Shown: positions 20,431-47,093 of the stretch, piece after piece | Layout of the letters: every line of letters starts with the position of its first letter | How positions within the stretch are numbered: position 1 is the first letter of the stretch | Assembly (NCBI GenBank): GCA_040183005.1 | Contig: JAMPIW010000007.1 | Location: 186,001-250,000 of the forward strand | Direction of reading: 5' to 3' | Length of the DNA stretch: 64,000 nt | DNA from: Gammaproteobacteria bacterium | GTDB taxonomy: Bacteria; Pseudomonadota; Gammaproteobacteria; Ga0077554; Ga007554 | Translations under genes and position numbers: made by a program | The notes under the pieces: model-generated | Databases searched by the model: none | What the model was told of the DNA's origin: nothing | The model's input: the letters and a program-made list of their open reading frames with translations, nothing else

Positions 20431-21225
20431 TCAGACCGCCACGGGTGCCTTGATGGCGGCGTGCGACTGGTAGCCCACTAATTCGAAGTCCTCATACTTG
20501 AAATCGAAAATCGAGGTGACCTCGGGATTGAGCTTCATCTGCGGCAGGGGATAAGGTTCGCGTGCGAGTTGCAGGTCCACCTGTTCGAGGTGGTTCGAGT
20601 AGAGATGGCAGTCCCCGCCCGTCCAGATGAATTCACCGGGTTGCAAGCCGGTGACCTGCGCGACCATCAGGGTGAGCAGGGCATAGGAGGCGATGTTGAA
20701 CGGCACGCCCAAAAAGATATCGGCGCTACGTTGATAAAGTTGGCACGACAAGCGGCCTTCGGCGACGTAAAACTGGAAAAAGGCGTGGCAGGGCGGTAGG
20801 GCCATGTTGTCGATCTCGCCTACGTTCCAGGCGCTGACGATGAGGCGGCGCGAATCCGGCTTGGCCTTGATCTGTTCGATGACCTGGCTGATCTGGTCGA
20901 TATGGCGGCCATCGGGCGTGGGCCAGGATCGCCATTGATAACCATAGATGGGGCCTAGCTCGCCATTTTCATCAGCCCACTCATTCCAGATGCTCACACC
21001 ATTTTCTTTGAGATAGTGGATGTTGGTCTCGCCGCGCAGAAACCACAGCAGTTCGTGGATGATGGATTTCAGGTGGAGCTTTTTGGTGGTTACCACCGGG
21101 AAATCGTGGCTCAGGTCGAAGCGCATTTGATGGCCGAAAACACTCAGTGTGCCGGTGCCGGTGCGGTCTTCCTTGCGTACCCCGTATGTTTTTACATGGC
21201 GCATGAGGTCCAGGTATTGCCGCAT
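20431..21225 (-). CDS. thyA: Thymidylate synthase
   Basis: The 264-residue enzyme methylates dUMP to dTMP and yields dihydrofolate for the adjacent FolA. The length equals that of E. coli ThyA. The catalytic Cys lies in [13 protein letters not shown], the substrate Arg residues in [11 protein letters not shown], and [18 protein letters not shown] is conserved. Its start codon is one base after the lgt stop. Confidence 0.98.
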
Positions 21226-21226
21226 G

Positions 21227-22039
21227 TCACAAGCCCTTGCTTTGAAGTTTCAGGTTTTTGGTATAGGCCCACCACAGCAGGCCGATGCCCGCCAGAATCA
21301 TGGGGGTGGATAGCACTTGCCCCATCGTCAACCAGCCGAAGGCGAGGTAGCCCAGTTGCGCGTCGGGTTCGCGCACGAATTCTGCTAGAAAGCGGAACAG
21401 GCCGTAAAAGACCAGAAACATCCCGGAGACAGCCATTGCCGGACGGGGCTTTCGGGAGAAAAACCATAAAATCAGGAATAGCACTATGCCTTCGAGGAAG
21501 GCCTGATAAAGCTGGGAAGGATGGCGCGGCAGCGGCCCGCCAAAGGGGAAGACCATGGCCCACGGCGCATCGCTGACCTTGCCCCACAGCTCGCCGTTGA
21601 TGAAGTTGCCAATGCGCCCTGCGCCCAGGCCGATGGGCACCAGCGGCGCGAGAAAATCGGTCACCTGGAAAAAGGTTTTGCCGGTTTTGCGGCCCAATAG
21701 CCACATCGCCACAAATACGCCTAGCATCCCGCCGTGAAACGACATGCCGCCTTCCCAAACCTTGAGCATTTTCAGCGGGGCATCAAGATAGACGGGTAGA
21801 TCATAAAACAGGATATAGCCGATACGCCCGCCCAGCACCGCGCCCAGCGCCCCATAAAACACCATGTCGCTGACCTGTTCGGCAGTCCATCCCGAGCCGG
21901 GGCGGCTGGCGCGCAACCGGCCCAGCCACCAGGCCGCGCCGAAACCCAGCAGATACATCAGGCCATACCAGTGGACCTTGAGCGGGCCGAGCTGGATGGC
22001 GATGGGGTCGATGTTTGGATACGTTAGCATAGGGAACAA
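21227..22039 (-). CDS. lgt: Prolipoprotein diacylglyceryl transferase
   Basis: The 270-residue inner-membrane enzyme transfers diacylglycerol to the lipobox cysteine of prolipoproteins. It has about seven membrane segments, the signature [14 protein letters not shown], and [12 protein letters not shown]. Its first-gene position upstream of thyA and folA with near-zero spacing is a common arrangement. The FG-GAP lipoprotein at 59.8-62.2 kb is a likely client. Confidence 0.97.
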
Positions 22040-23299: not shown

Positions 23300-23731
23300 T
23301 TAGGGTGAAATCAGCGTTAACTTTGGAAAATAGCTGCTGTAACGCTGCGTGTCGCGTGTTATGAGCGGAATGCTGCGTATCGCCGCATGGGCGCCAATGT
23401 AAAAGTCCGGCAAGGGTGAGCGTCGCGTACCGCCAGATTTACGATATTTGATAAAACATTTACCCGCCAGAAAGCCCGCTTCCCACGGTAAATCCTCACG
23501 GCGAAAAAATTCCGTGGGCAACGCCTCATCCAGATCTTCAATCCGGTCAAAACCGATAGAGACTTCGCAGTAGATGATCGGGTTAATGATCATGATGTGA
23601 TCCTCGGTCAAGGTTTCTAATTGACCAGCAGACCAATCGTACCATTGTACGTCATGGGTCACGATATCAAGAATAATATTGCTGTCTACCAGCACCTCAT
23701 GAGTGTTGCTCGTGTGTTGCTTAGCGTTCAC
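23300..23731 (-). CDS. PIN-domain toxin, VapC-like
   Basis: The 143-residue protein has a PIN nuclease fold: first acidic residue in VLVDSNIILDIV, Glu in YCEVSIGF, and Asp residues in PLPDFYIGAHA and ITRDTQRY. Such toxins cleave RNA. The GTG start at 23731 overlaps what would be the end of the in-frame antitoxin gene (stop at 23721-23723), so translation was probably coupled. No separate ribosome site is visible. See the antitoxin entry for its frameshift. Confidence 0.8.
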   Translation of the reverse strand: MNAKQHTSNTHEVLVDSNIILDIVTHDVQWYDWSAGQLETLTEDHIMIINPIIYCEVSIGFDRIEDLDEALPTEFFRREDLPWEAGFLAGKCFIKYRKSGGTRRSPLPDFYIGAHAAIRSIPLITRDTQRYSSYFPKLTLISP

Positions 23732-24130: not shown

Positions 24131-25420
24131 TCACTCCATCCCGTCCAGGCTATCTCGCTGGGTAAGGCCCAATAACCGTTGCACAGCGCGCGCATCCGGT
24201 GATTTGCAGGCTTGGATGGATAGTTCATGAAGAGTGCTGATATCCGTATTGGCTATTATTTGTGCCAGATGCGGAATCGCAAGGGGTTCTACCGAAAAAA
24301 TGCGGAAACCCAAGCCGAGCAGCACGGGAAGCATCCCCGGGTAAAGGGGCATCTGACCGCAGAATTGGGTGGGGAGGGTATAGGCATCAAGATCATCAGC
24401 CAGCTGCCGGAGGAAGCGCAACAGGGCGGGTGAGCAAGGGTCAAGCCAGTCGGCCATCTCAGGCAAGCGCCGGTCGGCGGCACAGAGGGTCTGCATCAGG
24501 TCGTTGCTCCCTATGGCTGCGAAATCCGCCAGTGCTCGCCACTCGCTTACGCACAGGGCGCTGGCGGGCGTCTCCAGCATGACGCCTACCGGTAAGCGTC
24601 CGCCGGTGATCGCGTCGATTTCACCCCGCCAGTGGGCGAATTCCCAGGGATGTGTAACATAGGGAAGCAGCAGGGCCAGCTCATATTCCGCTGCAAGTTC
24701 CGAAATTGCCGCTACCTGGGCGCGAAAGACGCTTTTTACCGGCTCACGGTCATAAAGGCGGCAGCCTTGCAGCCCTAATGGGGTGGCAGGCCCATTGTGC
24801 AGCCAGGCGGGACATTTGTCGGGTGCGATATCCAGCAGCCGGACGGTGACACCCAGAGGCCGAGCCGCCTCAAAAACCTCGCGTAGCGCGGCCAGATAGA
24901 ATTGTTGGTCTGGGATACGCCCCCCCAGCGGTTCCAGGAACTCCGAGCGCAGCAGGCCAATGCGGCTGGCGCCTTGTCTAACCGCCTGTAGTGCCGCATT
25001 GGCGCTTGGTACACCGGCGCGAAGCTCTACTGGAATGCCATCCATGCTGCGCACCATCCCGTTTATTACGGCTGGTGGAATTTGCTCTTGCCATATTTCT
25101 GTAAGAGGTGGGTTGAGGGTGATCAATCCGGTGTTCCCGTCTATCAGCGCCGCCATTCCTTCCGGCAGCAGCGCAAGCTGATCAGGTCTTATCAGCACGG
25201 CAGGAGTGCCCAAGGTGAAAAGGCGCGCCAGCGCATGGGAGAAGCGCGCCGCACCTGCAACGACCAGCCCTGCGGCAGATTTCACCCGCTCCAGGTTGTT
25301 CGAGACGAGCGCCTCCTGATTGAGTACCAGGATGCAGCCGGGGGTGCAATCCTCCAGGCGATAGCGCAGCATGCCGCGGGCGCGGCCTGGGATGTAAGGA
25401 ACGGTCTGGATTTGCCTCAT
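24131..25420 (-). CDS. PtsI-like PEP-utilising enzyme lacking the HPr-binding domain
   Basis: The 429-residue protein aligns by eye with enzyme I of the phosphotransferase system but lacks the HPr-binding insertion. Residues 1-100 form a short PEP-utiliser-like domain with His62 in FSHALARLFTLGTPAVLI, where the phospho-His should be. The C-terminal TIM barrel has GLLRSEFLEP (155-164), RLLDIAPDK, metal-ligand Glu283 in VMLETPASAL and Asp307 in IGSNDLMQ, and catalytic Cys354 in FCGQMPLYP. It should bind PEP; its phosphate acceptor is unknown. It begins one base after the stop of the metallo-beta-lactamase gene. Confidence 0.85.
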   Translation of the reverse strand: MRQIQTVPYIPGRARGMLRYRLEDCTPGCILVLNQEALVSNNLERVKSAAGLVVAGAARFSHALARLFTLGTPAVLIRPDQLALLPEGMAALIDGNTGLITLNPPLTEIWQEQIPPAVINGMVRSMDGIPVELRAGVPSANAALQAVRQGASRIGLLRSEFLEPLGGRIPDQQFYLAALREVFEAARPLGVTVRLLDIAPDKCPAWLHNGPATPLGLQGCRLYDREPVKSVFRAQVAAISELAAEYELALLLPYVTHPWEFAHWRGEIDAITGGRLPVGVMLETPASALCVSEWRALADFAAIGSNDLMQTLCAADRRLPEMADWLDPCSPALLRFLRQLADDLDAYTLPTQFCGQMPLYPGMLPVLLGLGFRIFSVEPLAIPHLAQIIANTDISTLHELSIQACKSPDARAVQRLLGLTQRDSLDGME

Positions 25421-25421
25421 T

Positions 25422-26441
25422 TCAGCTTTGTCTCATTCCTGAAAAAGCCTCTTCAAGCTCCTGCCGCAAACATTCTTCTTGCTCGGCATATTTGGGTGAA
25501 AAGTGAAATGGAATCACTCTTTTGACGCCCGCCTCACGGGCGATCACGCCGGCCTGATAAGCCGTGAGATGAAACTTTTCCGCTGCACGTCGGGCATCCG
25601 CATGAAGAAAGGTGGACTCGATGAACAGCAAATCCGATTCGCGCGCCAGCTCGATGATCTTGCGCGCATTCTCCTCATGGTAAACCACATCGGTCACATA
25701 GGTGATCTTCTGGCCGGGCACGATGTGCAGAATTCCGGCCTTCAGCACTCCCAATGGGACGTATTTTTCGTGGATCATCCCTTCCTCGCGCCACCACACG
25801 CGAAAGGGGCTATCCTCTTCTTCTCCGCGCAGCACCGCCTGCTTTAATTCCCGCAGCCAGGGTCCGATGGGGAACCCCATCTCCGCCAGCCGGTTTTTCC
25901 AGACATTGACATGGATTTTCTCCTCCAGTGTGAACGCAAGGCAGGGAATCTTATGGTCAAGGAAGACGCTGCGCACCCTGAAAGTCTCTTCGTTGAGGAG
26001 CACCCCATCGGGGAAAGAAATGGTTTTCTCGCCCTCGCGCCGGAAAGCCTTCTGGCAGCGGAAACGGGCTTTTGTGGCCGCGCCACCGGGATGTATCTCG
26101 ATGGCTTCGATGGTGAAGTCGGTGGGGTAGTTCCGCACCAGGTTCCAGGTGTACGCCGCCAGTTTGTGTTCCACCTGGGCGACAAACTCCGGCGGCCCGA
26201 ACAGGCGCAGGTTTTTCTCCCTGCCCAGGCTGATCCGCAATAATTGGTCGAATCCCACGAAATGGTCCATATGGGTGTGGGAGACAAAGATATCGCTGAT
26301 GCGCAGAATCTTGCGCGATGCAAGCGCTTGCAGGTCTCCCAGGTCAAAGAGAAAAGACCGCTTCTCGAACAGATATTCCACGTAAAGCCCTGGGTCTCCG
26401 AAAGGATTATTGACCAACTGGGGAAGGAAGAGAGGTTTCAT
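25422..26441 (-). CDS. Metallo-beta-lactamase-fold hydrolase, RNase Z-like
   Basis: The 339-residue protein has the metal motif SHTHMDHFVGF near residue 55, later Asp and His ligands in YVTDVVYHEE and FIESTFLHAD, and a C-terminal IPFHFSPKY, as in RNase Z/ElaC relatives. A long insertion (about residues 130-220) separates the halves. It is in an operon with the PEP enzyme, with one base between them. The tRNA 3'-processing activity is a family-level guess; other phosphodiesterase activities are possible. Confidence 0.8.
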   Translation of the reverse strand: MKPLFLPQLVNNPFGDPGLYVEYLFEKRSFLFDLGDLQALASRKILRISDIFVSHTHMDHFVGFDQLLRISLGREKNLRLFGPPEFVAQVEHKLAAYTWNLVRNYPTDFTIEAIEIHPGGAATKARFRCQKAFRREGEKTISFPDGVLLNEETFRVRSVFLDHKIPCLAFTLEEKIHVNVWKNRLAEMGFPIGPWLRELKQAVLRGEEEDSPFRVWWREEGMIHEKYVPLGVLKAGILHIVPGQKITYVTDVVYHEENARKIIELARESDLLFIESTFLHADARRAAEKFHLTAYQAGVIAREAGVKRVIPFHFSPKYAEQEECLRQELEEAFSGMRQS

Positions 26442-29064: not shown

Positions 29065-29922
29065 ATGAATGAGGAAGATCTCTACGATTTGTTGACTCGA
29101 TGTAACCCTTCTCAGTTGGACTACATCACGGTCAAGTTGCAACTGAATGACGCGTTTTTGCCTGGATCCGGCGAGTCGGTGGCCACGCGGGCGAGCGCCA
29201 TGCTAAAGTTGATCAAGCCGCGAGGTGTGAGAGGCTTCACCGCTTTGGAAAAAACCCTTACCGCGGCATTAGGCCTAAAACCGGCGCCGAAGACCAAACA
29301 GAAGCGCGACACGGACAAAGTCTCGAAGCCGGCCAAGTCGCACCTCCAGACCGTGTTGTCCGCCAAGCCGAACGCCGTTCCACCCTCGAGCGCCGAACGA
29401 ACGATGGATCCGTGGTTAGTCCCCGGAGGGCACACGACCCAGCTCCGGACCATCCGGATCTTTCTGGCATCGTCAGAGGAGCTGCGCCAAGAACGTGACG
29501 AATTCGAGCTGTACTTCCGGCAGCAGAACGATCAGTTCCGCAAGAGAGGCTTCTATCTGGAAATCAATCGCTGGGAGAACTTTCTCGACGCGATGTCCGG
29601 AACGCGCTCGCAGGACGAGTACAACAAGGCAGTGCGCGACTGCGATGTGTTTGTCAGCCTATTTTTCACCAAAACCGGCAAGTTCACCGAGGAAGAGTTT
29701 GATACCGCGCACCGCCAGTTCAAGGAGACCGGTCGCCCGCTCATTTACACATTCTTCAAGAATGCAGAGATCAAAACCGGCAGCACGCGAGAGGAAGACA
29801 TGCAATCGCTATGGGTATTCCAGAAAAAACTCGCGACCCTCGGGCATTTTTTTACCCGTTACGACAACGTCGAGCATCTGAAACGTCAGTTCCGCGATCA
29901 GCTCGACAAGTTGCTGGCGTAA
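29065..29922 (+). CDS. Adaptor-domain + TIR-like (DUF4062-like) putative effector
   Basis: The 285-residue protein has three parts. Residues 1-70 are a small all-helical domain (LYDLLTRCNPSQLDYITVKL) that is also found at the start of the next protein. A Lys/Pro/Ser-rich linker spans 71-125. Residues 128-285 are a TIR/DUF4062-like alpha/beta domain with IRIFLASSEELRQERDEF, RDCDVFVSLFFTKTG (191-205) and the acidic helix TEEEFDTAHRQF (208-219), which could hold the NADase-type Glu. The layout matches effectors of prokaryotic conflict systems that are recruited through effector-associated death-like domains. Enzyme activity is inferred. Confidence 0.7.
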   Translation: MNEEDLYDLLTRCNPSQLDYITVKLQLNDAFLPGSGESVATRASAMLKLIKPRGVRGFTALEKTLTAALGLKPAPKTKQKRDTDKVSKPAKSHLQTVLSAKPNAVPPSSAERTMDPWLVPGGHTTQLRTIRIFLASSEELRQERDEFELYFRQQNDQFRKRGFYLEINRWENFLDAMSGTRSQDEYNKAVRDCDVFVSLFFTKTGKFTEEEFDTAHRQFKETGRPLIYTFFKNAEIKTGSTREEDMQSLWVFQKKLATLGHFFTRYDNVEHLKRQFRDQLDKLLA

Positions 29923-30052: not shown

Positions 30053-31186
30053 ATGACAGTGGCCGTGACATGGGAAGAGCTGTATGAGCGGTTGTGCGAT
30101 TGTAACGAGGGCCAGCTCAGCTATATCGAACAGCACCTGCACTTGCCGGCTGAATTTATTAGCCAAAAAATGATCGCCACACGCGCCCATGAGGTGGTCA
30201 AGCTATTACAGCAGCGCAGAGACGAGAAGTTGATGAGCGCGCTCAAGCAACTGCTCGACAAAGTGCAAAGCGGCACGAAAGACTACCTCGGCGGCAGATT
30301 GGAGCATCTGAAGAAGTTCCTGATTACATCGACTCACACCGAGAACACATCACCGGAGTCGGTAGGAACCATCAAAGAGCTTCGAGAGAAGCTCAAGGAG
30401 GGGGCGACATTAGAGAAGCCGGTGCTCATAAAGGTGCGAGGAACGCTTTTTCCTGCGGCACTGCTCACGGAAGGATGGTGGGAGCGAAAGCAACAGGAAA
30501 CGGCGTCGCTCAAGATCGAATGGAAAAATCCCCTCCAGGAATGGCTGTTCAGAGGTTTCGATCTCTGGGCACCATCCTGGGACATCTGCTGGGGCGCCGC
30601 GGACCCGAAACACGATGAGAAGCGCTACTACATTGCACAACTTACCGAAGGCGATGAAGCCGATTCATTGCCGGTAATCATCGGGACTGAAAAGGCGCAA
30701 AAACTGAGAGACGAATTTCAGGATAGCTGGGGCGGGTTCGAGGCCGTAATTGTTGGACGGCTGGGTCACCGATACCAATTCGATAAGAAGCTGCCGAAAA
30801 ACGTTAAGCGAGATTCTCACGACTATTACATCTCAGTTGAGGACGCCAAACCGCAACACAAGATTTCGCGACCGAAAGGCGCGAAGACTGACCTATATTC
30901 CGGGTACCTATGGAAATTGCTTGCGCCCGAGGAGTGGCTCAAAGGCGAGGATATACTGGGTCTGAATGAAGTGTATTTCGTGTGGGAGCATACCAACTTT
31001 GTGGCGAAGGACGCAGTCGCTTACAACCTCGAGGGCCTGGAGCACAAGGAGCGTTTCATCGCTAAGCTGCACCCGAGCAGTAACCTGATCTTGCTGCAAA
31101 AATCGCATGGGATCGTTCCGGGCAAACCAAAGTGGTCAGTGGAAAAGTTCTACAATTTTTACTTGGGGCAAGGTAAAGAAATTTAG
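30053..31186 (+). CDS. Adaptor-domain protein with unknown C-terminal region
   Basis: The 377-residue protein starts with the same small helical domain as its neighbour (residues 6-70, ELYERLCDCNEGQLSYIEQH; shared pattern E-LY-x2-L-x2-CN-x2-QL-x-YI, then ATRA and KL). Residues 100-377 are rich in Trp, Tyr and charged residues and match nothing I know. The ATG has AGGAG only one or two bases away, so GTG at 30059 may be the real start. The gene follows the TIR-like gene by 130 bp. A sensor or second effector role is inferred from the shared domain. Confidence 0.7.
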   Translation: MTVAVTWEELYERLCDCNEGQLSYIEQHLHLPAEFISQKMIATRAHEVVKLLQQRRDEKLMSALKQLLDKVQSGTKDYLGGRLEHLKKFLITSTHTENTSPESVGTIKELREKLKEGATLEKPVLIKVRGTLFPAALLTEGWWERKQQETASLKIEWKNPLQEWLFRGFDLWAPSWDICWGAADPKHDEKRYYIAQLTEGDEADSLPVIIGTEKAQKLRDEFQDSWGGFEAVIVGRLGHRYQFDKKLPKNVKRDSHDYYISVEDAKPQHKISRPKGAKTDLYSGYLWKLLAPEEWLKGEDILGLNEVYFVWEHTNFVAKDAVAYNLEGLEHKERFIAKLHPSSNLILLQKSHGIVPGKPKWSVEKFYNFYLGQGKEI

Positions 31187-31545: not shown

Positions 31546-31574
31546 TCAGCGTGCTGAATAACCGCCCAATCTGG
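31546..31574. repeat. 29-bp dispersed repeat, copy 2, supplying the helicase stop
   Basis: This copy matches 24019-24047 at 26 of 29 positions. The first three bases (TCA) are the minus-strand stop codon TGA of the helicase gene, and the repeat encodes its last residues ending GGYSAR. The stretch 31393-31545 has nothing else I can support. Confidence 0.6.
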
Positions 31575-34500
31575 GTGTGACACGGCATTTGAGCAAGGTA
31601 TTCTTCAGATCCCATTGCTCGTTTGCATTTACAGTATCCATGAAACGCACTTCACCCGCAATTTGAATGGCGACCGGCACGCCGTCACGGTACAGCACGC
31701 GGTTGGCGGCGAGTGCGGGGATCTTGGGGCCGGGGGTGATGATGCCGGCGAGATTCAGCGGGTCGGCGCCGCACAGGGCGATGGTGGCGCCATCCTTGGC
31801 CTGGCGGCGGATGTCGCGCAGCGAACCCACCGCTTCGGGCAGTGCATATTGTTCGCCGGAGAATCCGGCCACGAAGCGTCCGCCGCGGATCTCGCCGCGC
31901 GCCTCCAGGCGCCGGTATACCCACAGCAGTTCACGCCAGGGTGGTAGCCAGCCAGCCTCGCGCTCGATCACGCGCCGGAACACGATACCGTAGCGGCGCA
32001 ACAGGGTGTGTGCGATGAATTCGACGGTTTCGGGATCGTGCTGGCCGCCGCTCCATGGACGTGGTTGCGCCCCTGCCGGTTCGGGCACGCGTGCCGTGCC
32101 GTTGCGTTTGAGCAAGCCCCAGCGCCCGGCCTCAGCAAGACCAAAGGGAGTGCCGCGATGATGGCGTCTGCCTCCCGCGAGCGGGCGGCGGCGATCGGCG
32201 GGTGTGAGCAGGGCGCGCAGTCCGCTGAAGCTGTCGGCGCTCACCTGACCTGCCGCCACTAGTTCGCCAAGGGCTTCTTCCAGTTGCGATTGCAGCAGCC
32301 CCGCGTGGCCCGCAAGGTCATCGAAGAACGATGCGCCATGCGCGGTAAGATAATCCGCCACCTTGTGCGCCGATGCCGAGAGGTTGGTTGGTTTATCCGG
32401 TGACTCTGACGCCAGCGCATTCCAGACTGCAAGATTGTGGCGGCTGAGCAGGGCGATGGGTGTGGTGCGCACCGGCCCACTTCCTGCGGTTTTGTCTGTC
32501 ATGGTGCGCGGCGGGGTGAGCCTTGCCCAGACGATACGGCCAGACAGGCATAAGCTGTCTATGAATGATGATTCATAGCTGTTTATGCGGGCTGGCAGGA
32601 TGTCGCCTTCCCACGCTGCCGCTTGCGCCTCGAATCCTTCCAGTTGTTCGATGATGGCCGACAAGGCCTCGCCCCCTTCGCCGCGCAGTTCGGGAATGAC
32701 GCGCTGCCAGTGGAACAGAAAGCGCATGAAATCCGCGCTGCTGACCGGCTCGATTTCCTGACGCAGACGCTTGAGGGTGTAGCGATGGATGCGCGCGAGC
32801 AGACGGCGTTCGCACCATTCAGTATCATTCGCAGTATCGCCTATTCTGGACGTGAAGCTTCCGCGTAATACAAAACCCTCGCCTTCGAGGGCCAGCAGTG
32901 CGGCTTCAATATCGCGGACAGGCAACCCCAGCGGCTGTGCGAGTTGGGCCACGGTGACCGGCCCAAGTCCTTCGAGCCGCCCGCGCACAATCTCAACCAG
33001 CGCGGATTCGCGGCTCCAGGTGTGCGTGAGGTATTCAGATGGCGGGGTGATCTCCAGTGTCAGGCGCGGTTCGTTATAGATGGCCTGGAACTGGGGCAGC
33101 CGCTCAACCGCGATCCACAGCGCGGGTTGATCCGGCGCTGTATGGACCACGGTGGCCCGCCCGGCTTTGGACAAGTCTGCGAGATACGGCCGCCAGTCCG
33201 CGCTGCCGCTCATGCCTTCTTGTGCGGTCACAAAGCCCAATGTCACCAGCGCGTCATGCAGTTCATCGGCGCTTGCCGCTTCTGGCCATACCTCATCGCG
33301 CACCCGCTGGATAGCCTCGGGGTCGAGACGGCCCAGATCGGAAGCGGTTTCGGGATCGAGCCAGCGGCGCGCCATGACGGCCTGAGTGCGCCGCTCTTCC
33401 AGAGGTGCATCGTCGAGATAGGCGTAAGGGCGTGCGGTGAGGATTTCCTGTGCCAGGGGTGAAGGCCCAGCGAGGTCACGCGCCACGGCGCGGATATCGC
33501 CGCGTTCCAGCGCGGCGAGCAGCCGCTCCAGCCCTTCAATGTCCATGGCCTCGTGCAGGCAGTCGTGGATGGTCTGACGCACCAGCGGGTGATCGGGGAT
33601 CTCGCGGTCGCCGACGATGTTCTCCAAGCAGGCGCGCTGATCGGGGAACACCAGCGCGATCAGATCTTCGGCGATCATGCGCTGCAACTGCGGTGGTGTT
33701 TTCTTTCCGCCGCGAAAGCGCGGCAGGGCCAGGGCGATGGAGGCGTCCCAGCGCCAGCGCGTGGTGAACATCGGGGCATCGAGCAGCGCCTGCACCAGCA
33801 GCGGCCGCACTGTCTTGGCGTTCAGGTGTCGGGCCACCTCGTCGAGCGCAAAGCTGTGGGTGGCGGTCAGCGAAAGCACAATGGCGTCTTCGGTGGCGGC
33901 GGCCTGCAGTTCGAAATTGAAGGTACGGCAAAAGCGCTTGCGCAAAGCGAGCCCCCAGGCGCGATTGATGCGGCTGCCGAACGGCGAATGCACAATCAGC
34001 TGCATGCCGCCGGATTCATCGAAAAAGCGCTCCAGCACTACAGTATCCTGGCTCGGTAACACGCCCAGCGCCGCCTGGGCGGAGGCGAGGTATTCGACGA
34101 GTTGCGCGGCGGCCGCACCCGTAATCTCCACTTCTTGCGCCAGCCAGCGTAGGGCGTCATCCGTAGATATCGTGAGCCGCTGTGCCATCTCGTTGCGCAG
34201 GCGCGAAACGGCAAGCGACAGCTGATCGCTGCGGCTCGGCGCCTCGCCGATCCAGAACGGGATGGTGGGCGGCTGCCCGTGGGCATCCTCCACCCGCACT
34301 CGTCCGGCCTCGATGCGCAGGATGCGGTAGGAATGATTGCCGAGCTGGAAGATGTCGCCCGCCATGCTCTCCACGGCGAAGTCTTCATTGAGCGTGCCGA
34401 TGAAATGACCCTCCGGCTCGAGGATCACCTGATAATCGGCGTTATCAGGAATCGTGCCGCCCGAGGTGAGGGCCGTCAGCCGTGCGCCGCGCCGGGCGCG

Positions 34501-35946
34501 CAGTTGCCGGTTTACACTGTCACGGTGCAGGTAGGCGGATCTGCGTCCGTGGCGGGTGCTGAATCCCTCCGCCAGCATGTGGATCAGGGCATCGAAGTCC
34601 GCGCGCGACAGATCGTGGTAGGGCCATGCGCGACGCAGGCATTCATAGAGTTCATCTTCCTGCCATTCGCGGCTGGCAACCTCGGCAACGATCTGCTGCG
34701 CCAGCACGTCGAGCGGTTTTTCCGGCATGATCAGACTGTCCAGTTCGCCGCGCCGTACCGAATCGAGCAGTGCCGCGCACTCCACTAGATCATCGCGGCT
34801 CAGCGGAAACAGCCTGCCCTTGGGGATGGCGTCCAGACTGTGGCCGGAGCGTCCCACGCGCTGTAAAAAGGCCGCGATGGAGCGTGGCGAGGCGAGCTGG
34901 CAGACCAGGTCCACATCGCCGATGTCGATTCCCAGCTCCAGCGATGCGGTGGCCACCAGCACGCGCAACGCCCCCTGCTTGAGGCGCTGTTCGGCGTCCA
35001 GGCGTTGCTCACGCGACAGGCTGCCGTGGTGAGAGGCGACATGCTCCTCGCCCAACCGTTCGGACAGATGCCGGGTGACGCGTTCCGCCATGCGCCGGGT
35101 ATTAACAAAAATCAGCGTGGTACGGTGCGCCTGGCTCAACGCGGCGAGCCGGTCATAGACTTGCTGCCACACCTCGCCGGACATCACCGCCTCCAGCGGA
35201 GATCCCGGCACTTCCAGTGCAAGATCGCGCTGCCGGATATGGCCGGAATCGATGATCGCGCAGTCGGGCGCGTCATCGGCCGCAATACCGCTTGCGCCGG
35301 TCAGAAAACGCGCCACTTCCTCGATGGGCCGCTGAGTCGCGGATAATCCAATGCGGGTGAGCCGCCTGGCCGTAAGCGCCTCGAGACGCTCCAGCGACAG
35401 GGCGAGGTGCGCGCCACGTTTATTGGCCGCCAGGGCGTGGATCTCGTCCACGATCACAGTGTGCACGCTCTTCAGCATGTCGCGCCCACTCTCGCTGGTG
35501 AGCAGGACATACAGCGATTCCGGCGTGGTCACCGCGATATGCGGCGGACGGCGCCGCATCGCCAGGCGTTCGCTCGTCGGGGTGTCACCGGTGCGCACCA
35601 GCGTGCGGATCTCAACGTCCGGCAAGCCAAGGGCTTCGAGTTCGGCGCGGATGCCGCTGAGCGGGATCTCCAAATTCTTGTGGATGTCGTTGCTGAGCGC
35701 CTTGAGCGGCGAAACATACACCACCTGCGTCTGGTCCGTGAGCTGCCCCGCCAGACCTTGTCGCAATAGCGCATCAATCGCGGCGAGAAACGCCGCCAGC
35801 GTCTTGCCCGAACCGGTGGGTGCCGCAATCAGGGTATGCCGCCCCGCCAGGATCTCCGGCCAGGCCTGCACCTGTGGCGCAGTGGGGGCGGGGAAGGTCT
35901 TGCGGAACCAGTTTGCAACGGCGGGGTGGAAGCGGTTGAGGGTCAT
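31546..35946 (-). CDS. lhr: Lhr-type large superfamily 2 DNA helicase
   Basis: The protein has about 1466 residues from the chosen ATG at 35946, where homologues start ([14 protein letters not shown]). ATG 35979 or GTG 35994 would add up to 16. The helicase core shows Walker [13 protein letters not shown] in [16 protein letters not shown], and QRVGRSGH. The winged-helix and Lhr-core regions follow, and a long C-terminal extension completes the Lhr-HR plan of E. coli Lhr. It is a 3'-5' DNA helicase for repair. The last residues (RLGGYSAR) derive from a dispersed repeat rather than from the family. Confidence 0.9.
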
Positions 35947-36031
35947 GAGATTATCTGGCAATTGCCATTTTGAATGCATGAGTGCTTTTTGCACAAAGCT
36001 AAGCCTTCAAATGGAGGTTTCTGCCCTATAT

Positions 36032-43970: not shown

Positions 43971-45290
43971 TCAGCAATAAATAATACGACGCGCACATTC
44001 CACGCCGCTGCGTACCGCGCCTTCCAGTGTGGCGGGATAGCCAGTATCCGTGTGGTCGCCCGCCAGCCAGCAGCCGCGCACTGATGTTGCGGCACCGGGA
44101 CGCAGGATATTGATGCCGGGGCGGCAGGCGAAAGTGGCGTATTTTTCGCGGATGACCAGGCTGTGTTTCGGCCCATGTTCCGGTGTGGCCCAGTGCGGAA
44201 AGATCCGCGCCAGTTCCGATGCTACGTGCGCGCTCAATTCACTCTTACTCATCTCCATATGCGGCCCAGGGCCGCTGATGACGACCGCCATCAGGCCGGG
44301 CTGTCCGTATAGCGCGCGGTCGAAGACCCATTGTGTGGTCGAATCCAACAGGCCGATCATCGGCATATCAAGGCGTGTCTGTGGTGGATACTGTAGGTAG
44401 ACAGTGCAGATTGGCTCATGGCTTATCTCTGCCAACCGCTGTGCTATGCCGTGCAGCGTGGGATGGGGTTCCATCAGCCGCTGGCAGGCATTGGGCGGGA
44501 TGGCGAGTATCACATGGTCGGCGGCTATTTCATGATCATTCACGGATACGTTGCGGACAGCGTTATTCTGAACGGTTAGTTCTTTTACGCGATGGTTGAG
44601 TTTGACCGTGCCGCCATGTTGTTCGATAAAACGCCGCGCGGGCTCGGGAAATGTGTTTCCCAAATCAACGCGACTCAAGAGAAGATCGGAATCGCTGCGG
44701 CTGCGGGTAAACGCATCCTGAAGCACGCGTAAAAACACCTGCACCGATGCGTTATGCAGCGGAGTATTCAACACCGCCAGACACAGTGGTTCCCATAGGG
44801 CGCGGATCAAGGCGGGGGATTGTTTATTGTGCGACAACCATGCCGCCACGCTGATATCGTCGTTGATTTTGAATCCGCTCCGCAGCAGGCCACGGCATAT
44901 TGATAGCGCATTCAGGCGTTCCGCCAGGGCTAATCCTTCGGCATTCAATAAGGCGGTTACGAGATGGAGCGGTGCGGGCAACGATGGGCAGGTAATGCGA
45001 ATGTCAGAGCGGCCAACAGCTTTGTAGATGAGTTGCAGAGGGCGGCGCTCGAAGACACTGGCTTCCGGTATGCCCAATATATTCAGCAGTCTTAGCGTTT
45101 CACGGTAGGCGCCGAGCAGTAGGTGCTGGCCGTTGTCGATGCGTTGACCGTTCAAGGTATAGTCCAGTCCACGCGCACGCCCGCCGAGTTGCGGTGCCGC
45201 TTCCAGGACAGTCACACGGGTACCGTGCCGACACAGCTCCACCGCTGCTGCCAGACCCGCCCAACCGCCGCCGACTATGACAACGTGCAT
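43971..45290 (-). CDS. hpnE: Hydroxysqualene dehydroxylase
   Basis: The 439-residue FAD-dependent amine-oxidase-fold enzyme reduces hydroxysqualene to squalene. It starts with the dinucleotide-binding VVIVGGGWAGLAAAVELCRHG and LEAAPQLGGRA. A second flavin motif near the C-terminus is WLAGDHTDTGYPATLEGAVRSG. It is the third gene of hpnC-hpnD-hpnE, joined to hpnD by TAATG. No squalene-hopene cyclase gene lies in the window. Confidence 0.93.
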   Translation of the reverse strand: MHVVIVGGGWAGLAAAVELCRHGTRVTVLEAAPQLGGRARGLDYTLNGQRIDNGQHLLLGAYRETLRLLNILGIPEASVFERRPLQLIYKAVGRSDIRITCPSLPAPLHLVTALLNAEGLALAERLNALSICRGLLRSGFKINDDISVAAWLSHNKQSPALIRALWEPLCLAVLNTPLHNASVQVFLRVLQDAFTRSRSDSDLLLSRVDLGNTFPEPARRFIEQHGGTVKLNHRVKELTVQNNAVRNVSVNDHEIAADHVILAIPPNACQRLMEPHPTLHGIAQRLAEISHEPICTVYLQYPPQTRLDMPMIGLLDSTTQWVFDRALYGQPGLMAVVISGPGPHMEMSKSELSAHVASELARIFPHWATPEHGPKHSLVIREKYATFACRPGINILRPGAATSVRGCWLAGDHTDTGYPATLEGAVRSGVECARRIIYC

Positions 45291-46168
45291 TATGCTTTTT
45301 GCATGTCGCGTTTGCGCTGTTTTTTGTAGATGCTTTTTTCGTGGCGCGCGGTTTGCCAGGCGATCCAGAGCTTGCGCAACGGCGTTAATGAAACGCGTCG
45401 TTCGAGAACGTTGTAACCATCATCCTCTATTTCCTTGAGCGTGGCCTGATAAATGGCTGACATGATGAGTCCGCTACGTTGCGGATAGCGGTCGCCCTCA
45501 GGTAGATGGGCATAGGCCTGGGTGTAGTATTGGTGTGCGCGTTGCGCCTGGAATTTAAACAGTTCGCGCATGTTGTCGGACGTGCGGTGTGCCATGATGT
45601 CCTCCGGAGTGACGCCGAACCGTTCCAGCTCGTCGAGGGGCAGATAAATTCGCCCCAGCAGGCTGTCTTCACGGACATCGCGCAGGATATTGGTGAGCTG
45701 GAAGGCCATGCCGAGTTCATGGGCGTATTTCAGGGTGCGGCGGTCTTGATAGCCAAAAATCTCCGCTGCCATCAATCCCACGATGCTCGCCACGCGGTGG
45801 CAGTAGAGGGCGAGATCCTTGAATGAGGCATAGCCCTGGTGATCGAGATCCATCTCCATGCCGTCGATGATTTCCAGGAAGTGTTCTTGCGGCAGATTAT
45901 AGGTGGTCACTGGCCCGCGCAATGCCTGGCCCACCGGATGGCGCGACGTGCCGTCAAAAACCCTGCCGATCTCCTCGCGCCACCATTGGAGCTTGATGCG
46001 CGCCACGTTGACATCTTCGCACTCATCGACTACATCATCCACCTCACGGCAGAAGGCGTATAGGGCGGTGATGGCTTGGCGCTGCTGTGGCGGAAGGAAT
46101 AAAAAACTGTAATAAAAACTCGATCCGCTCTTTGCGGCCTTGTCCTGGCAATATTCGTCGGGGGTCAT
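45290..46168 (-). CDS. hpnD: Presqualene diphosphate synthase
   Basis: The 292-residue head-to-head prenyl synthase joins two farnesyl diphosphates. The two Asp-rich motifs are REVDDVVDECED (about 45-56) and NILRDVREDSLLGRIYLP, typical of HpnD. It follows hpnC by 67 bp and overlaps the hpnE start by one base. Confidence 0.94.
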   Translation of the reverse strand: MTPDEYCQDKAAKSGSSFYYSFLFLPPQQRQAITALYAFCREVDDVVDECEDVNVARIKLQWWREEIGRVFDGTSRHPVGQALRGPVTTYNLPQEHFLEIIDGMEMDLDHQGYASFKDLALYCHRVASIVGLMAAEIFGYQDRRTLKYAHELGMAFQLTNILRDVREDSLLGRIYLPLDELERFGVTPEDIMAHRTSDNMRELFKFQAQRAHQYYTQAYAHLPEGDRYPQRSGLIMSAIYQATLKEIEDDGYNVLERRVSLTPLRKLWIAWQTARHEKSIYKKQRKRDMQKA

Positions 46169-46235
46169 ACGCTGGCTTGAAAATGTAAGAGACAGGCTCT
46201 AAATGTACGGGAAGTACGATGATAACAGATTCAAG

Positions 46236-47093
46236 CTACTGTTTCCGCGTCAGCGCTCCCCACATCATCGCCAGCCAATCATGCGCCTTGAGCCGCGGCC
46301 GAGTAAAGGCGTCGTCGCGTTGTGCCTCCAGCGCTTGCAAGACGCGCAATCCGCCGTGGTAGGTGAGGCGCAGCTCAAAGCCCATGCGACCCGGCAGTAC
46401 ATTGCCCAGGGGTGTGCCCGATAACATCAGGTGCCGCGTGCGCTCGATTTGCATGGTCATCAGGCTGCGCATGGCGGCATCAGTTCGGCTTTGCCGGAGA
46501 TGGTCTTCGGTTACGCCATAGTGAGCCATTTCATCTTGCGGCAGATAAATGCGATTGCTTTCGTGATAATCCTGGCCGATATCCTGCCAGAAGTTGATGA
46601 GCTGCAAGGCGCTGCATATTGCATCCGAGTGGGCAAGATTGACGGGTGTGGCAAGGTCATAAAGATGCAGCAGTAATCGTCCCACCGGGTTGGCTGAATG
46701 GCGACAGTAGTAGAGAACCTCGTCGTAGTTCGCATAGCGTTCTTTGGTTACGTCCATGCGAAATGCCGTCAGCAAGTCATAAAAGAGTTGCAGAGGCAGG
46801 GCGTGTTTGCTTATCACATCCTTTAGCGCGATGAACACCGGGTCATCAATCGTGCTGCCGTTCTTGATGGTGTCAAGTCCCGCCACGTAGGCGTCGAGTT
46901 TCGCAAGGCGCTCATCAGGTGCAAGGTCACCCTCATCGGCAAAGTCATCCGCAGTGCGCGCGAAGGCATAGATCACGCTAATCGGCTCGCGCAGACGTTT
47001 GGGCAGGAAGACCGAGGCGACAGGGAAATTTTCGTAGTGGGAGCGCGCCAGACGCAGGCAGTGTGCGTAAGCGTCGGGGAGGGTGAATGTCAC
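46236..47093 (-). CDS. hpnC: Hydroxysqualene synthase
   Basis: The 285-residue squalene/phytoene-synthase-fold enzyme converts presqualene diphosphate to hydroxysqualene. Its Asp-rich motifs are FARTADDFADEGD (about 44-56) and LINFWQDIGQDY. HpnC, HpnD and HpnE together make squalene, usually for hopanoids. It is the first gene of the set. No sterol or carotenoid gene is near. Confidence 0.93.
   Translation of the reverse strand: MTFTLPDAYAHCLRLARSHYENFPVASVFLPKRLREPISVIYAFARTADDFADEGDLAPDERLAKLDAYVAGLDTIKNGSTIDDPVFIALKDVISKHALPLQLFYDLLTAFRMDVTKERYANYDEVLYYCRHSANPVGRLLLHLYDLATPVNLAHSDAICSALQLINFWQDIGQDYHESNRIYLPQDEMAHYGVTEDHLRQSRTDAAMRSLMTMQIERTRHLMLSGTPLGNVLPGRMGFELRLTYHGGLRVLQALEAQRDDAFTRPRLKAHDWLAMMWGALTRKQ

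Follow-up and report, generated by a model that had tools for sequence, protein, structure and literature searches.

In the standard phosphotransferase system (PTS), PEP chemistry is bound to HPr. The protein described here, the product of a short enzyme I-like gene (short EI), finds its best relatives of solved structure among the enzymes I, and shares with PtsI (TIGR01417) the PEP-binding barrel, the catalytic His, Glu, Asp and Cys residues and the domain order; a profile alignment of short EI with TIGR01417 (hhalign) has a probability of 100 over 374 columns at 27% identity. Unlike PtsI, short EI is without the HPr-docking helices, has the GGxTSH loop and Arg358 replaced, and scores below the TIGR01417 cut-off. 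PtsP (EI-Ntr), which has an extra N-terminal GAF domain, similarly combines swivel and PEP-binding domains and is encoded separately in the genome studied here (L002), but it has the HPr-docking helices and short EI forms a clade apart from it. The C-terminal half of PEP synthase (PpsA) offers a further likeness, an uninterrupted swivel followed by a PEP barrel (PDB 8a8e); short EI, however, lacks the ATP-grasp domain, falls with enzyme I in the tree, and has the Lys340 of enzyme I at a position that is Glu in the aligned PEP synthases. A pyruvate kinase extended by a C-terminal swivel (PDB 2e28), a weak match to the short EI family profile (3.7e-6), likewise carries a PEP-utilizer swivel outside the PTS, but its catalytic domain is different. 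Finally, a study of HpeHI, CreHI and PpsAB describes a swivel phosphohistidine protein with a separately encoded partner, a layout that resembles short EI, but these systems rely on ATP and on a phenol-binding domain, and the swivel domain is all that they have in common with enzyme I (PMC12167813). We found no description of an enzyme I without the HPr dock in the open-access literature, which is weak evidence as many relevant journals lie outside its coverage, and the accessible part of a survey of PTS phosphotransfer proteins makes no mention of the short form (PMC2405797).

The gene lies in a stretch of 64,000 nucleotides from a Gammaproteobacteria bacterium (hereafter, the window), with the following features:

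24131..25420, minus strand: short enzyme I-like gene (short EI), 429 aa, ATG start, with a swivel phosphohistidine domain and a PEP-binding barrel
25106..25420, minus strand: swivel (mobile) domain of short EI, about aa 1-105
About 25343-25372, minus strand: point of the missing HPr-docking helices in short EI, about aa 17-26, from the alignment to E. coli EI
25235-25237, minus strand: codon of His62 in the swivel domain, computed from the ORF coordinates
24242..25048, minus strand: PEP-binding domain of short EI, aa 125-393
Within the PEP-binding domain, minus strand: Gln218, at the position of EI Arg358
24572-24574, minus strand: codon of Glu283, PEP-binding domain
24500-24502, minus strand: codon of Asp307, PEP-binding domain
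24359-24361, minus strand: codon of Cys354, PEP-binding domain
25422..26441, minus strand: RNase Z-like metallo-hydrolase (NCBIfam PRK02126), directly upstream of short EI with a 1-nt gap; NF002558 at 471 bits against a cut-off of 315

The reading frame given in an earlier note on this DNA proved exact. A Pfam scan matches aa 125-393 to PEP-utilizers_C (PF02896, 2.9e-43) and aa 27-98 to the mobile His domain (PF00391) at 5.9e-4, slightly under the curated cut-off; across the short EI family, 14 of 15 members match PF00391 at E 0.01 or better. The same scan gives no match to the PPDK_N (ATP-grasp) domain within the protein. Enzyme I (TIGR01417) is the top family model at 141.9 bits, against an equivalog cut-off of 341.7, with PEP synthase second, and the libraries searched contain no dedicated model for the short EI clade, only these sub-cut-off enzyme I and PEP synthase matches. 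Structure prediction with three input sequences gave an unusable model (mean pLDDT 38).

In short EI, the swivel is joined straight to an enzyme I-type PEP-binding domain, with about 125 HPr-docking residues gone. The stretch from position ~22 to ~146 of E. coli EI, which holds the HPr-docking helices, aligns with 0 residues in 15/15 short EIs as compared to 116-125 in 14 complete EIs, bearing out the claim of the earlier note that the HPr-binding insertion is absent, and the model of the HPr-docking helical subdomain (PF05524) has no match in any of these 15 members. With no residues at this stretch, the swivel domain is uninterrupted, as in PEP synthase, and residues 388-796 of PDB 8a8e match positions 13-394 of the short EI family profile without a large insert.

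The earlier note also saw no HPr gene nearby, in agreement with the single HPr match of the window's genome, which sits on a different contig; the two PF05524 matches of this genome lie on a different contig and 1.4 Mb off, respectively. Similarly, the stand-alone HPr-docking domain that had been named beforehand as refuting evidence was not found near short EI in any of 16 carrier genomes: PF05524 matches are on other contigs in 14 of them, and in the other two (G000 and G555) they are at least 1.4 Mb from short EI or on a different contig. A PTS gene cluster with HPr near short EI was rejected on these distances.

In the alignment, His62, Glu283, Asp307 and Cys354 correspond to His189, Glu431, Asp455 and Cys502 of E. 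coli EI (PtsI), as the earlier note had recognized. Ten residues are kept in 15/15 short EIs (E. coli EI numbering): His189, Arg296, Arg332, Asp335, Lys340, Arg361, Glu431, Asn454, Asp455 and Arg465; the Cys502 equivalent is kept in 14 and is Ser in G007, so that the loss of key residues in orthologues that the earlier note had named as refuting evidence was not found. Two changes had escaped that first reading. The equivalent of Arg358 is Gln in 13/15 short EIs and Arg in all 14 EI, five PEP synthase and one PPDK rows aligned. In addition, the GGxTSH-type loop is replaced, with Ala for the second Gly and Phe or Leu for Thr in 15/15, although this loop also varies among the aligned EIs (Thr in 9/14, the second Gly in 10/14). 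The His is flanked by Phe/Leu two residues before it in every short EI, where 9/14 EI rows have Thr, and by Leu/Phe six residues after it, again in 15/15, where 12/14 EI rows have Arg. The replaced Arg358 and the hydrophobic residues flanking the His indicate that catalysis or the donor may have changed, and the rewritten loop would fit a changed docking partner.

A tree of the PEP-binding domain places the 15 short EIs in a single clade (support 100/100) on a very long stem, separate from both PtsI and PtsP. When PEP synthases and PPDK serve as outgroup, short EIs nest among the enzymes I and not with PEP synthase (forks at 96/98 and 98/99), although a stem as long as 2.7 changes per column, together with the length of the PPDK branch, leaves the exact point of attachment uncertain. 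A recently truncated ptsI was therefore rejected as the source, given the fully supported clade on its long stem, and tree and scores favor enzyme I over descent from PEP synthase, with the 2.7-change stem still allowing a long-branch error. The alignment and trees leave out G087, whose frame is broken near aa 72 and which is still counted as a carrier; a partial EI (L086) was not used in the alignment, the trees were built without L024, and the second tree also omits several near-identical EIs. Three copies from one genus (dN 0.063-0.067, dS 0.16-0.22, dN/dS about 0.28-0.40) point to purifying selection, and orthologues range from 88% (same genus) down to 40% identity to the short EI of the window. 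Since orthologues this divergent keep the residues, and in view of the dN/dS, chance is excluded as the source of these features.

To describe the distribution of short EI, we drew 369 genomes from the class Gammaproteobacteria, of which 16 passed a threshold of E 1e-37; one of these (G268) was dropped as an ordinary EI with a 639-aa frame, and the remaining 15 matches all stand at about 1e-82 or better, leaving a clear gap between short and ordinary EIs. The gene is thus patchy within the class (15/369), and the carriers represent 13 genera. It occurs in 4/8 genomes of the window's order and 1/28 of the order of G171, and a phylum-wide draw at E 1e-45 yielded 2/397, namely the window's own genome and G555, a single-contig genome that brings the carriers to 16 (15 of them aligned). 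Named relatives are two MAGs, 'Gammaproteobacteria bacterium' Ga0074134 and ND4_Bin_8. Searches of phages and plasmids returned only ordinary EIs, at about 26-31% identity among the matches listed (the plasmid matches H1-H4, which were inspected, are full-length EIs), and a scan of viral contigs found no short EI. All 16 carriers have the HPr-docking domain in an EI-type frame elsewhere in the genome (in G370, a 216-aa frame at the end of a 5572-base contig) together with one HPr, none of them near short EI, which argues that short EI is an addition to the PTS and not a replacement. The ptsI of the window's genome (L003 about 2246-2349; C1, ~92.5 kb) is split in two frames at a G run, while the same-genus genomes G004 and G006 have ptsI in one 587-aa frame; the split is either an assembly slip or a real frameshift.

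The RNase Z-like gene adjoins short EI on the same strand, as the earlier note had observed, and the two are probably co-transcribed. Two relatives of the same genus also have the pair, making the genes direct neighbors in genus g1 (G000, G004, G006), with the RNase Z-like gene cut by a contig end in one relative. In the distant carrier G049, the genes that come after short EI in the same orientation are rtcA (PF01137, 4.6e-76) and, beyond it, one for a 672-aa protein that fuses a Clp1-type P-loop (PF16575) to a domain of the PRK02126 RNase Z-like family, such that short EI and the RNase Z-like domain are one gene apart. Short EI and PRK02126 are thus physically linked in at least two lineages, but of the 11 genomes that carry both genes (G555 included), 7 do not have them as neighbors. 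Clustering of the neighbors at 16 loci (short EI itself was called in 14, and located separately in L038 and L047) revealed no constant partner, the RNase Z-like family being the only one recurrent beside short EI. Similarly, no recurrent arrangement emerged around the RNase Z-like gene (seven other carriers) or around rtcA (nine genomes), except that G000 and G006, which belong to one genus, have rtcA surroundings in common.

Fusions of a Clp1-type P-loop and a PRK02126 RNase Z-like domain were seen at L040:11854-13872, L075:8205-10220 and L076:7166-9229 (G049, G056 and G347), and in several further genomes of the class the open frame around the PRK02126 match is of similar length. In G056, rtcA lies with archease-like and rtcB-like genes (identified by eye) about 10 kb from the fusion. 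A phosphoglycerate-mutase-like gene (by eye; L039:6854-8473, in G047) is downstream of short EI on the same strand, a possible link to PEP metabolism that was seen once.

Across the class draw, PRK02126 is present in 29/369 genomes, comprising 10/15 carriers as compared to 19/354 non-carriers (Fisher p 4e-9, kinship ignored). RtcA, which was picked for testing after its sighting in G049, is present in 32/369 (8/15 carriers and 24/354 non-carriers; p 6e-6, kinship ignored). Counted by genus, where a genus is not scored as shared if the two genes occur in different species, PRK02126 is found in 8/13 carrier genera against 17/261 others (p 1.5e-6). Both genes could be lifestyle markers: RuBisCO-family genes occur in 14/15 carriers and in 181/369 class genomes overall. 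Among the RuBisCO-positive genomes, PRK02126 is present in 9/14 carriers vs. 16/167 other genomes (p 6e-6) and RtcA in 7/14 vs. 17/167 (p 6e-4), kinship ignored in both tests. Leaving out the window's family as well weakens the link (PRK02126 6/10 vs. 16/166, p 3e-4; RtcA 4/10 vs. 17/166, p 0.02; kinship again ignored). Counter to the link, PRK02126 is absent from 5/15 carriers, RtcA from 7/15, and both from 4/15. The RNase Z-like gene beside short EI is probably not an accident of the window's locus and provides a lead; the earlier note was right about the adjacency, but the recurrence of this gene as a co-occurring partner was invisible to a reading of one sequence.

We consider it about an even chance that short EI is a stand-alone EI-derived PEP:histidine phosphotransferase that no longer acts on HPr. 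Put more broadly, short EI probably works as a PEP-dependent histidine phosphotransferase, or as a PEP switch, with an acceptor other than HPr; we infer this chemistry throughout, from autophosphorylation and PEP as the donor to the acceptor itself, both that there is one and what it is. In the proposed mechanism, the barrel would bind PEP and Mg2+ via Glu283, Asp307, Asn306, Arg158, Arg194 and Arg317, the swivel would take the phosphoryl group on His62, and Cys354 would protonate the pyruvate enolate, roles that we presume from the E. coli EI residues. The phospho-swivel would then dock some acceptor that is not HPr; with its 429 residues, short EI has no space for a further substrate domain, so this acceptor is most likely a protein. 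The absence of both the HPr dock and an additional substrate domain suggests a partner that docks on the swivel itself. Phosphotransfer to some such acceptor and PEP sensing, as the earlier note had raised, are plausible candidates for its role. An old EI-derived clade that lost the HPr dock and kept most of the PEP site would imply another destination for the phosphoryl group or for the PEP signal.

The main rival to this phosphotransferase, one that we hold to be clearly the less likely, is a PEP/pyruvate sensor or regulatory partner, which would bind PEP, perhaps cycle phosphate on His62, and act via protein binding, for example in mixed dimers with a complete EI or PtsP through the C-terminal (EI dimerizing) domain, with no phosphate passed on. 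That domain, the best conserved part of short EI, can be aligned with EI over its full length, every carrier has an EI- or PtsP-type gene whose product could pair with it, and transfer may be slow or absent given the altered His loop and Gln218; nevertheless, all 15 short EIs retain His62 and the Mg/PEP residues, beyond the needs of a pure binder. A phosphotransferase still serving HPr, by weak phosphorylation through the swivel domain alone that feeds a regulatory PTS, would account for the HPr found in 16/16 carriers, but the docking helices are missing in 15/15, the His loop is rewritten and HPr is on a different contig or far off in every carrier, making this very unlikely.

Equally improbable is a split dikinase, in which a separate ATP-grasp protein would phosphorylate His62 and the barrel would turn pyruvate or an analogue into PEP, as in a halved PEP synthase. 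The swivel-plus-barrel layout is that of the C-terminal half of PEP synthase (PDB 8a8e, 388-796), and two-component dikinases have been described in the superfamily (HpeHI, CreHI, PpsAB; PMC12167813). Against this, sequence and tree group short EI with enzyme I and not PEP synthase, no ATP-grasp gene was recognized beside short EI in neighborhoods read by eye, and the window's genome also encodes a PEP synthase-like protein (L005), which falls with PpsA in the tree. That short EI is a decaying, functionless enzyme I copy is the least credible reading, and is largely refuted by the conservation of residues: a frame is broken in 1/16 carriers (G087), and dN/dS (0.28-0.40) exceeds that of the RNase Z-like neighbor (0.19), but the clade extends over 13 genera plus G555 with identical residues kept and identical helices missing.

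If short EI phosphorylates, or signals to, a partner other than HPr, the first candidate for this acceptor would be one in RNA-end metabolism, as judged from co-occurrence only. In the specific form of this idea, short EI would serve an RNA-end processing set (the RNase Z-like hydrolase, the RNA 3'-phosphate cyclase RtcA and a Clp1-type polynucleotide kinase), either as a phosphoryl donor fuelled by PEP or as a switch that senses it. The PEP:pyruvate ratio would thereby be linked to how tRNA/RNA 3' ends are matured or repaired, and the swivel would dock an RNA-processing protein instead of HPr; we regard this as a speculative and unlikely proposal. If the partner does act in RNA-end processing, the state of central carbon metabolism would be coupled directly to the maturation or repair of RNA.

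Several other genes in the window are of separate interest. Near short EI, thyA and lgt (named by eye) are located at 20431-22039, a closeness that recalls thyA-lgt-ptsP in E. coli and that we set aside as probably coincidence since the short EI genes of relatives lie elsewhere. A PIN-domain (VapC-like) gene (23300-23731) is downstream of short EI on the same strand. The adjacent genes at 29065-29922 and 30053-31186 have N-termini that look alike by eye and are a possible defense/conflict pair; the former matches DUF4062 weakly and, among PADLOC models, PDC-S60 (8.8e-14). An Lhr-type helicase of 1482 aa is encoded at 31546-35994, with DpdJ as its best PADLOC model (1988 bits). Additionally, two adjacent squalene/phytoene-synthase-like genes, which we take to be probable hopanoid genes, are found at 45290-47093, the one at 46236-47093 matching PF00494 at 2e-65.
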